Positions 20,452 through 28,575 of a DNA stretch of 38,888 nt are shown here, piece by piece. Each line of letters starts with the position of its first letter. Positions within the stretch are counted from its first letter, which is position 1. Source of the stretch: Gammaproteobacteria bacterium (GTDB lineage: Bacteria > Pseudomonadota > Gammaproteobacteria > Steroidobacterales > Steroidobacteraceae); the NCBI GenBank assembly GCA_010027845.1, contig RGUL01000015.1:1-38888 (forward strand). Direction: 5' to 3'. The notes under the pieces are model-generated. The model did no database searches. It worked only from the letters and a program-made list of their open reading frames with translations, and was not told the DNA's origin. Position numbers and translations under genes: made by a program.

Positions 20452-21014
20452 GCACCGGCGTTCGACACCCAGCGCGTCACGCCGCCGATATCGACCGCAC
20501 GCACCGGCTTCATCTCGGTCGGCCAACCGACGTGGATGAAGCCCGCGACTTGATCGGTATCGGCGAGACCGAGTGCGTGTTTGACCGTCGGGTCGTAAGC
20601 TGCCCCACCCGTTTTCCACATCGTGCCGAGACCCGCCGCGCGCGCGGCGAGGATGAGATTCTCGATCGCGGCACCCACCGCGAGCACCTGCTCGACGTCC
20701 GGTACTTTCGGATGGCTCGAAACGCTCGTCGCAACGACGATCAACACCGGCGAGCGAAACGCCTTCGAGCGCTCGCGGCTCACGGTTTCCGCATCGGCCT
20801 CGGGGTGACGGCGACGCAGAGCCGACTCCAGAGCTGCGGCGAAGACCTCACGCCCTTGGTCCAGCAAGACGACGAATCGCCAAGGCGCGAGCAAGCCGTG
20901 ATCGGGTGCGCGCGCAGCGCAGCGCAGTAGGCTTTCGATCGTCGACGCAGGCACGCCCTGGTCACTGAATTTTTTGGCCGAGCTTCGGCCCTCGATCGCT
21001 TCCAAAACCTGCAT
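20448..21014 (-). CDS. Nitroreductase family protein (YdjA-like)
   Basis: This 188-residue FMN-dependent oxidoreductase resembles E. coli YdjA, a minimal nitroreductase. GRSSAKKFSDQGVP near the start carries the FMN phosphate-binding Arg/Ser, followed by CAARAPDHGLLAPWRFVVL, then PVLIVVATSV and GAAIENLILAARAAGLGTMWKTG. It probably reduces nitro compounds or quinones with NAD(P)H in the cytoplasm; the real substrate is unknown. I chose the ATG at 21014, which has AGGA a few nt upstream and aligns with the start of YdjA; a GTG at 21029 lacks a Shine-Dalgarno. It lies 63 nt downstream of the small secreted protein gene on the same strand. Confidence 0.85.
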   Translation of the reverse strand: MQVLEAIEGRSSAKKFSDQGVPASTIESLLRCAARAPDHGLLAPWRFVVLLDQGREVFAAALESALRRRHPEADAETVSRERSKAFRSPVLIVVATSVSSHPKVPDVEQVLAVGAAIENLILAARAAGLGTMWKTGGAAYDPTVKHALGLADTDQVAGFIHVGWPTEMKPVRAVDIGGVTRWVSNAGA

Positions 21015-21077
21015 CGGATCCTGCGCCACGTCGGCTTACGGGTGGCGCAGGATACCGGATGCGCGGGGTCATGCGGA

Positions 21078-21233
21078 TCAGAATACGTCGGTGGGCGGCA
21101 GCGGCAGAACCGGACCCGACGGACGGATGCGCTCTTTCGCTTCGGCCGAGGTCGCGGCAGCGAAGAAGGTCAACGTGGTGAGCATCAAGGCGAACAGGGC
21201 AAACAACTTTTGGCGGCGATTGGTGCGGGTCAT
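21078..21233 (-). CDS. Small secreted protein, 51 residues
   Basis: A short gene with good starts signals: GGAG lies about 7 nt before the ATG at 21233, in an AAGGAGT context. The product has a clear Sec signal peptide: basic MTRTNRRQK, hydrophobic LFALFALMLTTLTFFAAA and a TSAEA cleavage area. The mature part would be only about 18 residues, KERIRPSGPVLPLPPTDVF, rich in proline, so it is a secreted peptide rather than a folded domain. I recognise no family. It lies 123 nt downstream of the Ser/Thr kinase gene on the same strand, with a palindrome between them. A role as signal, or as accessory to the kinase, is speculation. Confidence 0.65.
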   Translation of the reverse strand: MTRTNRRQKLFALFALMLTTLTFFAAATSAEAKERIRPSGPVLPLPPTDVF

Positions 21234-21262
21234 GTCGGTACTCCTTGAGTGGAAGGTGGCTG

Positions 21263-21281
21263 TGAACCCGCGGCGGGTTCA
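21263..21281. promoter_or_regulatory. 19-bp palindrome before the small secreted protein gene
   Basis: TGAACCCGC-G-GCGGGTTCA is a perfect 9-bp inverted repeat with a 1-bp centre, 30 bp upstream of the ATG at 21233. With a one-base centre it is a better fit for an operator of a dimeric regulator than for an RNA hairpin. A smaller repeat (CCGG-CTCAA-CCGG, 21301-21313) is nearby. No regulator can be named. Confidence 0.5.
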
Positions 21282-21356
21282 TCAGGGAATACGCAACCCT
21301 CCGGCTCAACCGGACATCATTTTTTGCAAATCGCCACGAACTAAAAAATCAACGCA

Positions 21357-24167
21357 TCAAAAAATTCGTTCGGGTTCGCTCATCTCCCTCGCCCTGGTCT
21401 CGCTGAGGCCGGCGAGCGGCATTCGATCCGGCGCATCGCGCAGTCGATCCGACAGCCAACGAAGCTTTCGCACGGCCGTGTGTCGTTCGGGAAAGCTCTT
21501 GCGAACTTGATCTAATAAGACCTCCGTTCGATTCAAATATTGCCTATTAAGGGATAAATCGCTCTTATTGTTTCTTATTTCAAACAATAGCTGGTTCAAA
21601 CGCAGCAGCGCGGTGTCGGGATGGTCGGGCCCCATGCCCGCCGCGCGCTCGGCCGTTTCGCAGGCGCGCGCTAGCAATTCGGCGGCGGACTTCGTTTTGC
21701 CGACCGCCTCGGCCGCCCATCCCATCGCGAACCAGCGATAAGCGAGCAAGGCATTCGGGCTCTCGGCGCCGCGTGCGCCATTCCACGACTCGTCGCTCAT
21801 CCAACCCGAGGCCGCCGGGAAATCGCCAGCGTGGAGTGCCGCAGCGGCCTCGGCGAGCGCGAGGCGCCGACGAAAACGCAGCCGGTTGTCGGGTTCCGGC
21901 GGCAAGGCGCCGAGGTCTTGCCAGGCGAAATCGAGCGCGGCGCGAGCGTCGGCGCCGCGCTCGACGAAACCGAACACCGCCGCCTCCACGATGCGTCGCT
22001 CGATTCGGTCTTCGACTCGGAGCGGCAGTGCGACGGCTCGCGCCGCGTCGGCGCGCAGCCAGTCGACCACCTCGGCGGTTTGTTGCGTACGCCAGGCGAA
22101 TTTCAGCCAGTGCAGGTGCAGGGTTTGTTGGCTGGCGGCGTACGGCCCATAGACGCCGGCGGACTCGGCAACCAATTTTTGCAAAGTCGGCCACGCCGCA
22201 CGAAAGTCGCCGAGCCGATAGGCCCAACCCATTAACTCGGTGCCGCGCCCGATGCGGCTCGATGGCGTCAACCGGGGGTCGAGCAATAAATTCGAGGCCG
22301 CGCGCTGCTCGCGACGCGACGCCTCGAGATCACCGCGCATCCAGGCGCTGCGAATACGACCGAACAAGGCGATCAGTTGCCGATCGACGTTGCCCTCCAG
22401 CCGCGCGAGCTCGAGCGCGGTGGCGAAATTCCGTTCCGCATCGACGAGCGCGCCCTCGTCGAGTGCAATCCACGCGCGATTCAACCGCCAATCGATGCGA
22501 CTCGCGTTCGGCAACGACACGTCGTCGGCCGAGACCGGTAGTTGCTGCAAAAGATTGCGCGCATGGGCGACGTCACCGGCTGCGATCGCTCGCGTCGCCT
22601 CGTCGATCCTTGCAGCGACGAAACCCGACGCGTCGCCCGCGCCATCCATCGCCTCGGCGCGTCGCTCCATCGCCGCACGCGCGCGCTGCGGATCGCCGAG
22701 TCGCTCCCAAAGCGCGGCCACCGTCAACAACAATTCGGCACGCAACAAAGGTTGCGTCGCGAGATTGGCGCGCATTTGGGTTTCGCTGTCTAGCAATAGT
22801 TGGCGGGCCGTCATATCGCGACCGCCATGTAATTCCGGATTCGCTTGTTCGAATAAATCGAGCATGAAGTCACGTGCGGCGAGCGCCTTACGGGATTCTT
22901 CGCGCGCCTCGATCGCGAGCAACACGGCGACGATGCCGACCGCGACGATGATCAAAATCGCAGCAGCGCCGAGCGTCACCGACCAACGATGTCGAGCGAC
23001 GAACTTACGTAGAACGTAGGTTCGCGACGCCGGTTGCGCAGCGACCGGCTCGCCGGCGAGCCAGTGCGTCAAATCTTGATGAAACGCGTCGACGGACGAG
23101 TAGCGCTCGTGTACGTCACGCGCCATCGCGCGTAACAACACGGCATCGAGATCGCCGCGTAACGCACGCGAAATTTTCGACGGCGTCGAGTTACGTTGCG
23201 CAGCAACCTCGGCTTCGATACGTGTGCGGCTCGCGAGCCGCAACTGTGCATCGACGATCGCTGTTTCGATCTCGGCCGAGCTATTTTTGCGTGTGACGTA
23301 CGGCGAGCTACCGGTGAGTAATTCATAGAGCATCACGCCTAGCGAATACACGTCGCTCGCGATCGATAGCGGTCGCGACTGAACCTGCTCGGGGCTCGCA
23401 TAGCGCAAGGTCATCGCACGCGCACCGATATCCGTGACGATTTTTTCGGCTGGCGTGTCTTGCAAGCGTGCGATGCCGAAATCCAGTAGTTGTGCTTGAC
23501 CGCGGGCGTTGACGAGTACGTTCGCCGGCTTCAAATCGCGGTGGATCACCAAATGACTGTGGGCGTAGCGCACGGCGTCCAGCACCTGTAAAAACAGATT
23601 GATGCGCGCATGCAGATCGAGACGTGAGCGATCGCAGTATTCGTCGAGCCGTTGCCCTTGCACGTATTCCAGCGCGAGGAATGGCCGCCCTTTGTGATCG
23701 ATGCCGGCATCGTACAAGCGGGCGATATTCGGATGCTCGAGTGACGAGAGGATGTCGCGCTCGCGTGCCATCCGCTCCGCAAGACCGGGAATCCACGCTA
23801 GCCGCGGCAACTTCAGCGCGATCTGTCGCTTCAAAACTCCATCGACGCGTTCGGCGAGCCACACCGCGCCCATGCCACCGGTGCCGAGTTCGCGCAGCAC
23901 GCGATAGGGCCCGACGATGTCGTCGGGCGCGAGTTCCGGCGCCGGTGGTGGCAGCCCTTCGATCGGCGGCAAAGACTCAAACAAAGCTTCGGACTCGGCG
24001 ACCGCTTCGATCGACAACAGACCGCGCAAACTGTCGCGAACTTCGGGTCGCAGCGTCGTTTGAGATTGCAGCCAGCGTTCGCGCTCGGCGCGGGGCAACG
24101 CGAGCGCCTCGTCGAGCAATTCGCTGATGGACGGCCAGTCGGCGACGAGACCGGGAGGAAACTTCAT
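21357..24167 (-). CDS. Transmembrane Ser/Thr protein kinase with extracytoplasmic sensor region
   Basis: This 936-residue protein has a cytoplasmic Hanks-type kinase domain from about residue 87 to 372. The Gly loop is LGTGGMGAVW, the ATP Lys is in QIALKL (Lys119), the catalytic loop is HRDLKPAN (209-216) and DFG is at 229-231, so it should be active. One transmembrane helix follows (about 398-418, LGAAAILIIVAVGIVAVLLAI). The last 500 residues are Ala/Leu/Arg-rich helical repeats resembling a TPR-like solenoid and should face the periplasm as a sensor. I chose ATG 24167; an in-frame TTG at 24227 would add 20 residues. The gene directly follows an ECF sigma factor gene, suggesting that the kinase acts on that sigma factor. 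Confidence 0.85.
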   Translation of the reverse strand: MKFPPGLVADWPSISELLDEALALPRAERERWLQSQTTLRPEVRDSLRGLLSIEAVAESEALFESLPPIEGLPPPAPELAPDDIVGPYRVLRELGTGGMGAVWLAERVDGVLKRQIALKLPRLAWIPGLAERMARERDILSSLEHPNIARLYDAGIDHKGRPFLALEYVQGQRLDEYCDRSRLDLHARINLFLQVLDAVRYAHSHLVIHRDLKPANVLVNARGQAQLLDFGIARLQDTPAEKIVTDIGARAMTLRYASPEQVQSRPLSIASDVYSLGVMLYELLTGSSPYVTRKNSSAEIETAIVDAQLRLASRTRIEAEVAAQRNSTPSKISRALRGDLDAVLLRAMARDVHERYSSVDAFHQDLTHWLAGEPVAAQPASRTYVLRKFVARHRWSVTLGAAAILIIVAVGIVAVLLAIEAREESRKALAARDFMLDLFEQANPELHGGRDMTARQLLLDSETQMRANLATQPLLRAELLLTVAALWERLGDPQRARAAMERRAEAMDGAGDASGFVAARIDEATRAIAAGDVAHARNLLQQLPVSADDVSLPNASRIDWRLNRAWIALDEGALVDAERNFATALELARLEGNVDRQLIALFGRIRSAWMRGDLEASRREQRAASNLLLDPRLTPSSRIGRGTELMGWAYRLGDFRAAWPTLQKLVAESAGVYGPYAASQQTLHLHWLKFAWRTQQTAEVVDWLRADAARAVALPLRVEDRIERRIVEAAVFGFVERGADARAALDFAWQDLGALPPEPDNRLRFRRRLALAEAAAALHAGDFPAASGWMSDESWNGARGAESPNALLAYRWFAMGWAAEAVGKTKSAAELLARACETAERAAGMGPDHPDTALLRLNQLLFEIRNNKSDLSLNRQYLNRTEVLLDQVRKSFPERHTAVRKLRWLSDRLRDAPDRMPLAGLSETRAREMSEPERIF

Positions 24168-24233
24168 GTTGCGAAAGATCGGCGGGATTGCTTGCGGGAT
24201 ACGCAGTGCCGACTCACGACCGGACAAAAATTT

Positions 24234-24794
24234 TCAGGGGTCGCGCAACGACGCGGCGAGCAACAGTCGCGCTTTTTCCCAATCGCGTCGCACGGTGCGC
24301 TCGGTCACGCCCAGCGCTGCGGCGATTTCGACTTCCTTCATGCCGCCGAAGTAACGCATCTCGACCACGCGCGCGAGCCGCTCGTCGAGCTTCGCGAGTT
24401 CGAGTAACGCCTCGTGCACGTCGATGATCTCGTCCTCGCCCGGCGACGCGAGCCGCTCGCTGACGTCGGCGTCTAGCGTGACGTGCGCCGCGTCACCACC
24501 GCGCCGTTCGGCGTTCCGCGCACGCGCGACGTCGACGATGATCGAGCGCATCACTTGCGCACCGTACGCGAAAAAATGCGAGCGATCTTTGGGGGTCAGT
24601 CGATCGGCCGCCGTGAACTTCAGGTAGCACTCGTGCACCAGGATCGTGGTGTCGAGTAAGGTGCCGCGTTTGTGGGGCGCGAGGCGCGCGTGCGCGATAC
24701 GACGCAGTTCGGGATAAAGGGCGTCGAAGAGATCGTCGAACGCACGCTGATCCCCGTCGCGGGCTTTGGCGAGCAGGCCGGTGATGTCACCCAT
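24234..24794 (-). CDS. ECF sigma factor, kinase-linked (ECF43/TIGR02999-like)
   Basis: This 186-residue sigma factor has regions 2 and 4 only. Region 2 contains FDDLFDALYPELRRIAHARL and HFFAYGAQVMRSIIVDVARARNAERRGG; region 4 ends in VEMRYFGGMKEVEIAAALGVTERTVRRDWEKARLLL. In region 2.2 the acidic DAED-type motif of ordinary ECF factors is replaced by Asp48-Thr49-Thr50-Ile51 (DTTILVHECYLKF). Kinase-dependent ECF43 factors, such as EcfP of Vibrio parahaemolyticus, lack the same acidic charge and gain it by threonine phosphorylation. No anti-sigma gene is present; the next gene is a Ser/Thr kinase. ATG 24794 is preferred over an upstream TTG at 24827. Confidence 0.87.
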   Translation of the reverse strand: MGDITGLLAKARDGDQRAFDDLFDALYPELRRIAHARLAPHKRGTLLDTTILVHECYLKFTAADRLTPKDRSHFFAYGAQVMRSIIVDVARARNAERRGGDAAHVTLDADVSERLASPGEDEIIDVHEALLELAKLDERLARVVEMRYFGGMKEVEIAAALGVTERTVRRDWEKARLLLAASLRDP

Positions 24795-24860
24795 GCCCCG
24801 AGCATACCGAGGCGTCCGCCGCGGCAAACCGGAGATGAATCCGGTTCGGCAGCAGTTCGA

Positions 24861-25353: not shown

Positions 25354-27318
25354 ATGATGTTGCGCGTTCTGCTCGCCGCACTGCTGCTACTCGGCATCGC
25401 ACCGACGGCGCATGCTGCGGAGTCCAGTCAATTAACGGTGCTCGGCTATCACGAAATCGCCGACCCGAAAGCCTCGCTGATCCCCGAGTACGCGGTCACA
25501 CCAACGATGTTCGTGCGCCAGATCGACTGGTTGCGGAACAACGGCTTCCATTTCGTCAGCGTCGACGACGTGCTCGCCGATCGCGCCGGCCTGAAACGCC
25601 TGCCCGAAAAATCGATTTTGCTGACCTTCGACGACGGTTATCGCTCGGTGTACGACTACGCCTGGCCGATCCTCAAAATGTTTCGTATCCCGGCCGTGAT
25701 CGCGGTCGTCGGCAAATGGGAAGACTCCGTCGGACAAGTCGATTTCGACGGTCGCAGCAAGCCGCGCGACTATTTCATGACCTGGGACGAGTTGCGCGAG
25801 ATGAGCGCGAGCGGTTTGGTCGAGGTCGCGAGCCACAGCTATGACCTGCATCGCGGCATCGACGGTAATCCGCAAGGCAATCGCCAGCCGGCGACGGTCA
25901 CGCGCCACTACCACAAAGAAACGAAACACTACGAGTCGGAAGCGGACTACGAAAAGCGCATCGCAGCCGATCTTAAGGCCAACAGCGACGCGATCCGCAA
26001 ACACGTCGGACGCGCACCGCGCGTGATGGCCTGGCCATTCGGACGCTACAACCGCGTGCTACGCGAGACCGCGACGCGCCTCGGTATGCCGATCGGGCTC
26101 AATCTCGAAGACGGCGCTAACACCGCCTCGACGCCGCTGTGGGGCCTGCGACGCATTCTCATCGAACACGATATGAATCTTTGGGATCTCGGTCGCGAGA
26201 TCAAAATTCGCAATCTCGATCGCACCGACAACGATCGGCCGCAAAAAATCGCGCACGTCGATCTCGATTTCATCTACGACGAGGACGAGACGCAACAAGA
26301 GCGCAACCTCGGGCATCTGCTCGACCGTCTGACTTGGCTAGGCGTGACGACAGTCTATCTGCAAGCCTATTCCGACCCCGACGCCAACGGCTCGGCGGGC
26401 GAAGTTTATTTTCCGAATCGGCACATCCCGATGCGCGCCGATCTCTTCAATCGTGTCGCCTGGCAAATTCGCACCCGCACGCCGGTGCGTAGGCTTTACG
26501 CCTGGATGCCGCTGCTCGCGTGGGAATTACCGGCCTCGTCACCTGCCGCACGCGACGTCGTCGTCACCTTGCCGAGCGAAAAGCGCGGACATCTCAACAT
26601 GGGCTACCGACGCCTCACGCCGTTCTCACCCACCGCGCGGAAGGTGATTCGCGAGATCTACGAAGATCTCGCGCGTAGCGCACAGTTCGAGGGCGTGCTG
26701 TTCCACGACGACATCACGCTGTCCGATTACGAAGACGGCAGCAGCTTCGGTCTAGCGCAATATCGATCGTGGGGCTTGCCGGGTTCCATCGAAGAAATCC
26801 GCAAGAGCGACGATCTCGTCGGTCGATGGACGATCTTGAAGATCAACGCGCTCGATAATTTCGCACTCGAGATGGCCGACGTGGTGCGTCAGCAGCAGCC
26901 GGCACTCGTGACCGCGCGCAATTTGTATGCGCAAGTCGCGCTCAATCCACGCGCGGAGGTTTGGTACTCGCAAGCCTACGAGAATTCTTTGGCGCGCTAC
27001 GACTTCACCGCGATCATGGCCATGCCGTACATGGAGAACGACCCCGATCCGAAAACGTTCTATGCGAACATGGTGGCGCGGGCCAAGGAGCGCCCGAACG
27101 GCTTGCGCAAAACCGTGTTCGAATTGCAGTCGGTCGATTGGCGTCACGACCAAAAACCGATCCCGACCGAAGAGATGGTCGAGACCATCAAACAACTTTA
27201 TCGCGCCGGCGCGATGCACGTCGGTTACTACCCTGACATGCTGTTTGAGAACCATCCAGCGCCCGCGCAGATGCGCGCGGTATTTTCTTTGAAAGACAAT
27301 AATCCAGAGGTCGACTGA
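25354..27318 (+). CDS. pgaB: Poly-beta-1,6-N-acetylglucosamine deacetylase/hydrolase PgaB
   Basis: This 654-residue periplasmic enzyme deacetylates the exopolysaccharide PNAG during export. It has a signal peptide (MMLRVLLAALLLLGIAPTAHA). The deacetylase domain runs from about residue 27 to 290, with TFDDGY (the two metal-binding/catalytic Asp) and ASHSYDLHRG. The C-terminal glycosyl hydrolase-like domain (about 300-650) includes LDFIYDEDETQQERNLGHLLDRL, ILFHDDITLSDYED-type residues around FHDDITLSDYEDGSS, and the final YYPDMLFENHP. Two-domain length matches E. coli PgaB (672). Here the lipobox Cys of many PgaB proteins is not evident, so it may be soluble in the periplasm. It is followed by pgaC 3 nt later. 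Confidence 0.93.
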   Translation: MMLRVLLAALLLLGIAPTAHAAESSQLTVLGYHEIADPKASLIPEYAVTPTMFVRQIDWLRNNGFHFVSVDDVLADRAGLKRLPEKSILLTFDDGYRSVYDYAWPILKMFRIPAVIAVVGKWEDSVGQVDFDGRSKPRDYFMTWDELREMSASGLVEVASHSYDLHRGIDGNPQGNRQPATVTRHYHKETKHYESEADYEKRIAADLKANSDAIRKHVGRAPRVMAWPFGRYNRVLRETATRLGMPIGLNLEDGANTASTPLWGLRRILIEHDMNLWDLGREIKIRNLDRTDNDRPQKIAHVDLDFIYDEDETQQERNLGHLLDRLTWLGVTTVYLQAYSDPDANGSAGEVYFPNRHIPMRADLFNRVAWQIRTRTPVRRLYAWMPLLAWELPASSPAARDVVVTLPSEKRGHLNMGYRRLTPFSPTARKVIREIYEDLARSAQFEGVLFHDDITLSDYEDGSSFGLAQYRSWGLPGSIEEIRKSDDLVGRWTILKINALDNFALEMADVVRQQQPALVTARNLYAQVALNPRAEVWYSQAYENSLARYDFTAIMAMPYMENDPDPKTFYANMVARAKERPNGLRKTVFELQSVDWRHDQKPIPTEEMVETIKQLYRAGAMHVGYYPDMLFENHPAPAQMRAVFSLKDNNPEVD

Positions 27319-27321
27319 GTC

Positions 27322-28575
27322 ATGTCGGCGGCCGTGTTCGACTTCGTCTTCTACTATCCGCTCGTCATGTCGGCGATCTGGATGGGTGGAGCGTTGTTGT
27401 TCTTCTTCACGCGCGAAGTGCGCGAGCCGCGCTATCAAAATCCGCCGAAACTGCCGAACACGCCGCCGGTGACCGTGCTCGTGCCTTGCTACAACGAGGG
27501 CCCCAACGTCGAGGAAACGCTGCGGCACGCGCTCGCACTCGATTATCCGGACTTCGAAGTGATCGCCATCAATGACGGCAGCCGCGACGACACCGGCGCG
27601 GTACTCGATCGCATGGTCGGCAGCGATCCGCGGCTGCGGGTCGTGCATCTCGCCTCGAACCAGGGCAAGGCGATGGCGCTGCAAGCGGGCGCATTGCTCG
27701 CGCGGCACGAAATTTTGATCGGTATCGACGGCGATGCGCTACTCGATCGTCACGCCGCACATTGGATCGTGCGCCACTTCGAAAGTGATCCGCGCGTTGC
27801 CGCCGTGACGGGCAATCCGCGCATCCGTAATCGCTCAACCTTGCTCGCGCGCGTGCAGATCGGCGAATTTTCTTCGACGGTCGGCATGATCAAGCGCGCT
27901 CAAAAAATGTTCGGCTGCATCTTCACGGTGTCGGGTGTGATTGCGGCATTCCGCAAGTCGGCAGTGCATTCGGTCGGCTATTGGAGCCCCGATATGCTCA
28001 CCGAGGACATCGACATTTCTTGGAAATTGCAGCGGGCCGGATGGGTGATCGATTTCGAGCCGCACGCGCTCGCATGGATTTTGACCCCGGAGACCGTCGG
28101 CGGATTGTGGCGACAGCGTCTGCGTTGGGCGACCGGCGGCGCACAAGTGTTCTTCAAAAATCTCGACGTTGTGCTGCACCCTTTCAGCTCGCCACTGTGG
28201 CCGCTGTTCATGGAGATGATCGCCAGCCTCGTGTGGTCTTATTTGCTCTTCGCGACGCTCGGACTGTGGGTGTTCGGCGAGCTGTTCCCCCCGGACGCCG
28301 TGGTGGTCGCCGAATCCTCGCCCGTCTGGCCGGGCTCGGCGGGCGAAATCCTCGGCACCGTCTGCCTGCTGCAGTTCGCACTCGGCGTCTGGCTCGACGG
28401 GCGCTACGACCGCGGCCTCGGCCGTAATTACTTCTGGCTGATTTGGTACCCGCTCGCCTTCTGGGTCATCCATTTCTCGGCCACCGTGGCCGCCTACCCC
28501 CGGGTATTGATTCGCGGGCGGAACAAACGCGCCCGTTGGACCAGCCCTGATCGAGGCATCCGTCCGCCAGACTAA
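27322..28575 (+). CDS. pgaC: PNAG synthase glycosyltransferase PgaC
   Basis: This 417-residue inner-membrane GT2 enzyme polymerises N-acetylglucosamine from UDP-GlcNAc. It has an N-terminal membrane helix (about 7-28), then the cytoplasmic catalytic domain: TVLVPCYNEGPNVEETL, AINDGSRDDT, the IDGDALLD D-x-D, TEDIDISWKLQ with the base Asp, and WRQRLRW (the QxxRW product-binding motif). Several hydrophobic segments follow (about 290-320, 340-360 and 370-395). In E. coli, PgaC acts with PgaD, and both respond to c-di-GMP. It starts 3 nt after pgaB, so both are certainly co-transcribed. Confidence 0.94.
   Translation: MSAAVFDFVFYYPLVMSAIWMGGALLFFFTREVREPRYQNPPKLPNTPPVTVLVPCYNEGPNVEETLRHALALDYPDFEVIAINDGSRDDTGAVLDRMVGSDPRLRVVHLASNQGKAMALQAGALLARHEILIGIDGDALLDRHAAHWIVRHFESDPRVAAVTGNPRIRNRSTLLARVQIGEFSSTVGMIKRAQKMFGCIFTVSGVIAAFRKSAVHSVGYWSPDMLTEDIDISWKLQRAGWVIDFEPHALAWILTPETVGGLWRQRLRWATGGAQVFFKNLDVVLHPFSSPLWPLFMEMIASLVWSYLLFATLGLWVFGELFPPDAVVVAESSPVWPGSAGEILGTVCLLQFALGVWLDGRYDRGLGRNYFWLIWYPLAFWVIHFSATVAAYPRVLIRGRNKRARWTSPDRGIRPPD

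Follow-up and report, generated by a model that had tools for sequence, protein, structure and literature searches.

Phosphorylation of an extracytoplasmic function (ECF) sigma factor by the kinase encoded next to it is already known. In the ECF43 pair EcfP/PknT of Vibrio parahaemolyticus, phosphorylation was located on the second Thr of an STTA sequence, according to the accessible part of the report (PMC8999054). In EcfK/PknS of Xanthomonas citri, also an ECF43 system, the genes for sigma factor and kinase are likewise adjacent in the portion of the description available (PMC13147305). The signals for kinase-switched sigma factors are largely unknown. Here, we analyzed a stretch of 38,888 nucleotides (the window) from a gammaproteobacterium of the family Steroidobacteraceae (contig RGUL01000015.1, assembly GCA_010027845.1), which carries genes for an ECF43-like sigma factor, a PknS-type Hanks kinase and a 51-residue exported-looking protein, with one copy of a candidate promoter motif in front of the kinase gene and one in front of the small gene. 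The candidate promoter pair is new here, and the small exported-looking protein beside the sensor offers a concrete candidate for an output or a signal.

All elements were found on the minus strand in the order sigma factor gene (24794-24234), motif (24226-24199), kinase gene (24167-21357), motif (21316-21289), 51-residue open reading frame (ORF; 21233-21078), RNA hairpin and nitroreductase gene. We propose, with a probability of about 0.74, that they form an ECF43-type unit in which the kinase phosphorylates the sigma factor and the sigma factor drives the kinase gene and the small gene from TGTCCGG-N16-CGTAT. The kinase would sense an extracytoplasmic signal with its TPR-like (tetratricopeptide repeat-like) domain and would phosphorylate region 2.2 of the sigma factor at Thr50, perhaps also linker Thr106, by which the contact to RNA polymerase would be restored. 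The active sigma factor would then transcribe from TGTCCGG-N16-CGTAT promoters, with positive feedback via the kinase gene and with the adjacent tiny exported protein as output, perhaps also acting back on the system.

The sigma factor gene was read from its ATG to yield a protein of 186 residues; the frame can also be read from a TTG at 24827. The protein scored 182 bits against the TIGR02999 profile (cut-off 126) and in addition matched PF07638. We call it ECF43-like on the basis of membership in these two families, which take the place of an ECF group hidden Markov model here, together with the neighbouring kinase and the aligned phosphosite. It is the single match to this sigma factor at E ≤ 0.001 in the genome of the window (182 contigs, approximately 91% completeness). 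Region 2.2 reads D48-T49-T50-I51-LVHE. An earlier note on this DNA had described the acidic motif of this region as missing, which proved correct for position 4 of the DxxD-type motif, where the charge is lost to Ile, and incorrect for Asp48 at position 1 and a later Glu, which are both kept. The same note had treated the DTT sequence as unusual. In an alignment of 104 non-identical sigma factors from the fetched loci (3 rows gapped at all four positions) the four positions were occupied by D in 78, T in 92, T in 91 and A, S or V in 89 sequences. DTTx is, judged from this alignment, therefore the consensus and normal state of the clade.

For the assignment of the phosphosite an EcfK reference was obtained via a search with the PknS chain, which yielded a 99%-identical kinase with a 179-residue sigma factor alongside (locus L247, genome G844). 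We took the latter as EcfK homologue because of its place beside this kinase and because its Q49, T51, E52, H55 and T106 agree with the EcfK residues named in the available portion of PMC13147305. It shares 56 of 177 aligned residues with the sigma factor of the window, and its Q49-A50-T51-E52 aligns with D48-T49-T50-I51. Thr50, positioned on T51 of EcfK, is consequently the candidate phosphosite, which is also indicated by the phosphorylation of the second Thr of STTA in EcfP (PMC8999054, part of the text). Of the two residues considered earlier, Thr49 and Thr50, only the latter was retained, and the former comparison with EcfP/PknT turned out to be apt, with an adjacent kinase and Thr50 at the second Thr of STTA. 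The systems differ in detail: EcfK has QATE where DTTI is found here (PMC13147305, available portion), and STTA of EcfP is without acidic residue whereas Asp48 is kept here, a comparison made by description and not by sequence (PMC8999054, PMC8103513, accessible parts). Linker Thr106 may be a second phosphosite. EcfK T106 aligned with it in a 105-row alignment and with an Asp two residues later in a small alignment; we infer that the former is correct, since the published T106 and S108 frequencies fit it better (PMC13147305, available portion). Compensation between the two phosphosite positions was considered and set aside because of too few cases and the ambiguous alignment.

The kinase gene probably starts with ATG 24167 and extends to the stop at 21357 (936 residues). 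The listed TTG start at 24227 lies right next to the promoter motif; the relatives support the ATG. The earlier description of an intact Hanks-type kinase with one membrane helix and an extracytoplasmic region of about 500 residues was borne out: the motifs GTGGMG, ALK, HRDLK, DFG and SPE are present, a pre-kinase segment (approximately residues 1-60) and the kinase domain (approximately 84-372) are followed by a membrane helix at residues 401-419, the most hydrophobic 19-residue stretch of the protein, and the structure model shows the 517 residues beyond it as an extracytoplasmic helical solenoid, TPR-like at approximately 450-911. The closest sequence match in the PDB was 9EED, PknS of X. 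citri (E 6.6e-56, kinase residues 10-370 of 936, pre-kinase segment included), which also ranked first in the structure search. By homology the protein is a PknS-type kinase with catalytic Hanks motifs, and PknS likewise combines pre-kinase segment, one membrane helix and TPR region (PMC13147305, available portion). The full model had a mean predicted local distance difference test score (pLDDT) of 83.7 and a predicted template modelling score (pTM) of 0.56; the extracytoplasmic part modelled alone reached 85.8 and 0.84 and was all helical. Foldseek matches of this part included the TPR proteins MalT domain III, LGN, Tom70 and APPBP2. Pfam TPR hits stayed below cut-off, and the TPR-like solenoid is a prediction from the model. 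A stand-alone second match to the pre-kinase segment, approximately 70 residues long and with its own TGTCCGG-type motif, was observed between sigma factor and kinase in three loci (L065, 3132-3389, plus strand; L066, 2744-3013, plus strand; L067, 7511-7245, minus strand); it is possibly a decoy or a docking partner.

A sigma factor match at E ≤ 1e-15 was found in 13 of 24 genomes of the same genus, one of which (G012) was distant. At 13 close same-genus loci, from 12 genomes, the kinase gene was found next to the sigma factor gene in 12, some of them cut by contig ends, and the remaining sequence (L076) ends too early. A match at E ≤ 1e-40 was present in 46 of the 217 genomes of the wider family. 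Among the 80 best named relatives, retained out of 580 found and many of them titled Burkholderiales or its genera, 67 had a kinase match starting within 2.5 kb downstream of the sigma factor gene; in the 13 without one, contig ends truncate some of the sequences. The neighbourhood of sigma factor and kinase is thus kept, and both the pairing and the DTT motif are ordinary for the group. One same-genus kinase frame is broken (G009; L069, 2825-4724), with an ORF that stops at 492 residues and homology resuming in another ORF, due to decay or an assembly error. The gene for VipA of the type VI secretion system (PF05591) was found in none of the 24 genus genomes, unlike the setting of EcfK/PknS, and a role as regulator of this system as in X. 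citri was rejected. Control by an anti-sigma factor was set aside as well. As noted before, no anti-sigma gene is near: a Pfam scan of seven neighbouring genes (HD_4, RraA-like, nitroreductase, L-PSP, polysaccharide deacetylase/GHL13, LysR and glycosyltransferase) gave no match to an anti-sigma family.

The candidate promoter motif was found by aligning the leaders of the small ORFs and was later recognised before the kinase gene, too. In the window, TGTCCGG-N16-CGTA[TC] occurs twice (24199-24226 and 21289-21316, minus strand) versus 0.01 expected after shuffling. The strict form (CGTAY) gave 21 matches in the 24 genus genomes and 12 for the reversed control; of the 21, five genomes contribute 12 at their sigma-kinase loci, 4 precede the gene of an orthologous membrane protein, and the rest are scattered. 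The five genomes with the closest sigma factors account for 18 matches, of which 12 belong to the sigma-kinase locus; the reversed pattern gave 2 in these genomes. The relaxed form TGTCCG-N17-CGTA (any seventh base, any base after CGTA) follows the sigma factor gene in 11 of 13 close loci, with no copy in L069 and a single copy far upstream in L073. As an independent test of the spacing, 985 kb from 73 named loci that do not belong to the genus were searched for TGTCCG[GCT] followed by CGTA, with the gap between them varied in single steps from 8 to 29. A total of 29 matches (22 sense, 7 antisense) had N16, other spacings at most 2 per strand, and reversed and complemented controls 0 at N16 and up to 4 elsewhere. 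Outside the genus the motif lies just before the kinase gene in L112, L117, L133 and L145, and before a membrane protein gene between sigma factor and kinase in L103, L104 and L108. Overall, 21 of the 80 named loci have it near the unit (7 in the genus, 14 of 73 outside), 15 among the top 20 by sigma factor similarity and 6 among the remaining 60, genus included. Motif-bearing loci have sigma factors more similar to that of the window also outside the genus (p 7e-5, kinship ignored). No ECF43 target promoter was found in the literature naming the group, of which parts were available and most subscription papers lay outside the search, so that novelty is unproven. If real, the fixed-spacing motif, found in the genus and in Burkholderiales-titled loci, would allow the targets of this ECF43 subgroup to be predicted from DNA.

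Genes other than those of the unit also carry the motif. A membrane protein of approximately 128 residues has it in four genus genomes, G008, G020, G015 and G004 (L208, L211, L197, L207); the L208 copy had no Pfam match. A further ORF after a G020 match (L196, L274) is presumably HlyD-like, although unsupported by Pfam. The -10 element of the small gene is closely followed by an inverted repeat, GAACCCGC-G-GCGGGTTC (21264-21280), which is partly retained in L093.

The small gene (21078-21233, minus strand) has an AAGGAG ribosome-binding site and encodes a Sec-like N-terminus with a junction between AEA and K recognised by eye, which leaves a predicted mature part of 19 residues, 5 of them Pro. 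Relatives were recorded as exported-looking ORFs starting within 160 nucleotides of the kinase stop, export being called by a crude hydropathy rule. Such an ORF was present at all 8 testable loci of the genus (window, L093-L096, L107, L119 and L071), versus 1 of 51 testable loci outside the genus (22 more were untestable). Owing to their common descent, the eight genus loci do not count as separate events. In the sister genus, 20 loci were fetched and 1 of 18 testable ones was positive. Conservation of the small protein along with the pair, as considered earlier, was consequently seen within the genus and rarely beyond it, and a chance ORF was rejected on the contrast of 8/8 with 1/51. Codon-position differences summed over three pairs were 55/42/75, and the ratio of non-synonymous to synonymous rates (dN/dS) was moderately below 1 (0.74 and 0.49; third pair not computable). 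A sequence search in 60 genomes yielded one clear relative (53%, E 9e-6; next best E 0.04), and no Pfam or NCBIfam homology was found. A hydrophobic, Pro-containing C-terminal stretch is common to 7 of the 8 proteins (GPVLPLPPTDVF, PIVLPIWP, IVILPP, VPILPPFPIF), the remainder diverging. In L066 the stretch is cut by the contig. A strong hairpin (21012-21077, minus strand, z -4.4), a possible terminator or attenuator in which no U-run was seen, separates the small ORF from the nitroreductase gene; in L093, the other locus folded, its z was -2.4. The mature peptides of the window (21111-21125) and of G006 (L093, 11812-11826) have RPSGP in common, and the structural matches of the solenoid include APPBP2 in complex with an RxxGP degron; this likeness is probably a coincidence.

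The earlier note had left open whether the small protein is ligand, output or unrelated. An independent small gene that belongs with the adjacent nitroreductase gene is the least probable of the readings considered here. A nitroreductase-like ORF follows in six genus loci with continuing sequence (by Pfam in the window, by eye in the others). Against this speak the motif copy that immediately precedes the small ORF at 5 of 8 loci, its start 62 and 52 nucleotides past the kinase stop in two further loci (L063, L064) with the motif before those kinases, and the hairpin between the two genes in both folded loci. Its own motif copy, the hairpin behind it and its presence in all testable genus loci make it unlikely that the small gene has nothing to do with the unit. 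We regard it as most likely an output of the sigma factor, and possibly also as a feedback ligand. Output was ranked first because the gene downstream of the motif differs by lineage, a small exported protein here and membrane proteins elsewhere. A role as kinase ligand or self-made inhibitor, with the mature C-terminal peptide binding the solenoid from outside, appears unlikely to us; secreted peptides are bound by TPR receptors in RRNPP quorum sensing in a comparable way. It would agree with the position of a tiny Sec-like gene immediately behind that of the receptor kinase, with the peptide-bound TPR structures matched by the predicted TPR-like domain, with the motif copy of the small gene, which would close a feedback loop, and with the shared C-terminal stretch amid diverging sequence. 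However, the small gene is absent beside nearly all similar kinases outside the genus, the genus member L065 lacks the common stretch, and the similarity in fold is loose (best E 2e-5; TM-score ≤ 0.59, by query length ≤ 0.52, among the 50 matches listed). Divergence is faster in the sensor domain than in the kinase domain whether the small gene is present or not, so that there is no specific signal of coevolution between sensor and peptide, and such coevolution was rejected. A small Sec-type propeptide gene adjoining the gene of a TPR receptor is the signature of RRNPP systems such as PlcR-PapR, and the same arrangement is seen here; the RRNPP receptor is intracellular and of approximately 250-500 residues, whereas the 936-residue membrane kinase carries its TPR-like part outside, in a proteobacterium and with signalling through a sigma factor (PMC10075063, accessible part). 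With a membrane kinase as receptor the unit is not an RRNPP member. A full Gram-negative peptide circuit, in which the sigma factor drives a secreted propeptide, the TPR-like domain reads its diverging mature end and the kinase phosphorylates the sigma factor, is somewhat more doubtful still than a ligand role; if true, the circuit would amount to an analogue of RRNPP quorum sensing that faces outward, and the promoter of the sigma factor would control the kinase as well as the peptide.

A sigma factor that is not switched at Thr50 is also improbable, though less so than the peptide readings. The charge of Asp48 would then provide basal activity, with Thr106 or another mechanism as switch. Many sigma factors (78 of 104) have Asp at position 1, EcfK T51A was functional in X. 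citri and the T51A/T106A double mutant was not (PMC13147305, available portion), and the same-genus sigma factors of G001, G007 and G023 (L071, L070, L068) have DTAG, without an equivalent of Thr50, next to a kinase gene. On the other side, Thr occupies the T51 position in 91 of 104 sigma factors (3 rows being gaps), and the linker alignment is ambiguous, with EcfK T106 on Thr106 or two residues later. In the alignment, Ala stands at the Thr50 position in three same-genus rows (L136, L089, L090) and in L162, His in L188, and Ser in five rows. The retained Asp48 and the DTAG loci weigh against the proposed unit, and so do several findings on the motif. Only five of the eight small ORFs have a copy directly before them, in L071 the copy being solely before the kinase gene. 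The relaxed motif was missing near the unit in 59 of 73 named loci outside the genus and in 19 of 20 sister-genus loci. The strict motif occurs in 72 of 217 family genomes, scattered and by eye no commoner than the control. Several matches of the spacing test lie within unrelated-looking long ORFs (e.g., L097, L120, L124) and may be due to chance, and G004 has the motif-bearing membrane gene without a sigma factor match at E ≤ 1e-15. With no visible enrichment across the family and 1 of 20 loci in the sister genus, TGTCCGG-N16-CGTAT is a subgroup motif. For the proposed ECF43-type unit, the small exported protein and the candidate promoter pair are the additional features compared to EcfK/PknS (PMC13147305, available portion).

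On the opposite strand, a polysaccharide deacetylase/GHL13 gene and a glycosyltransferase gene (25354-28575, Pfam) adjoin the unit; they may correspond to PgaB and PgaC. Finally, the genome of the window contains a lone match to a PP2C-type phosphatase (PF13672; L253, contig C95 of G000), a possible counterpart of the kinase.

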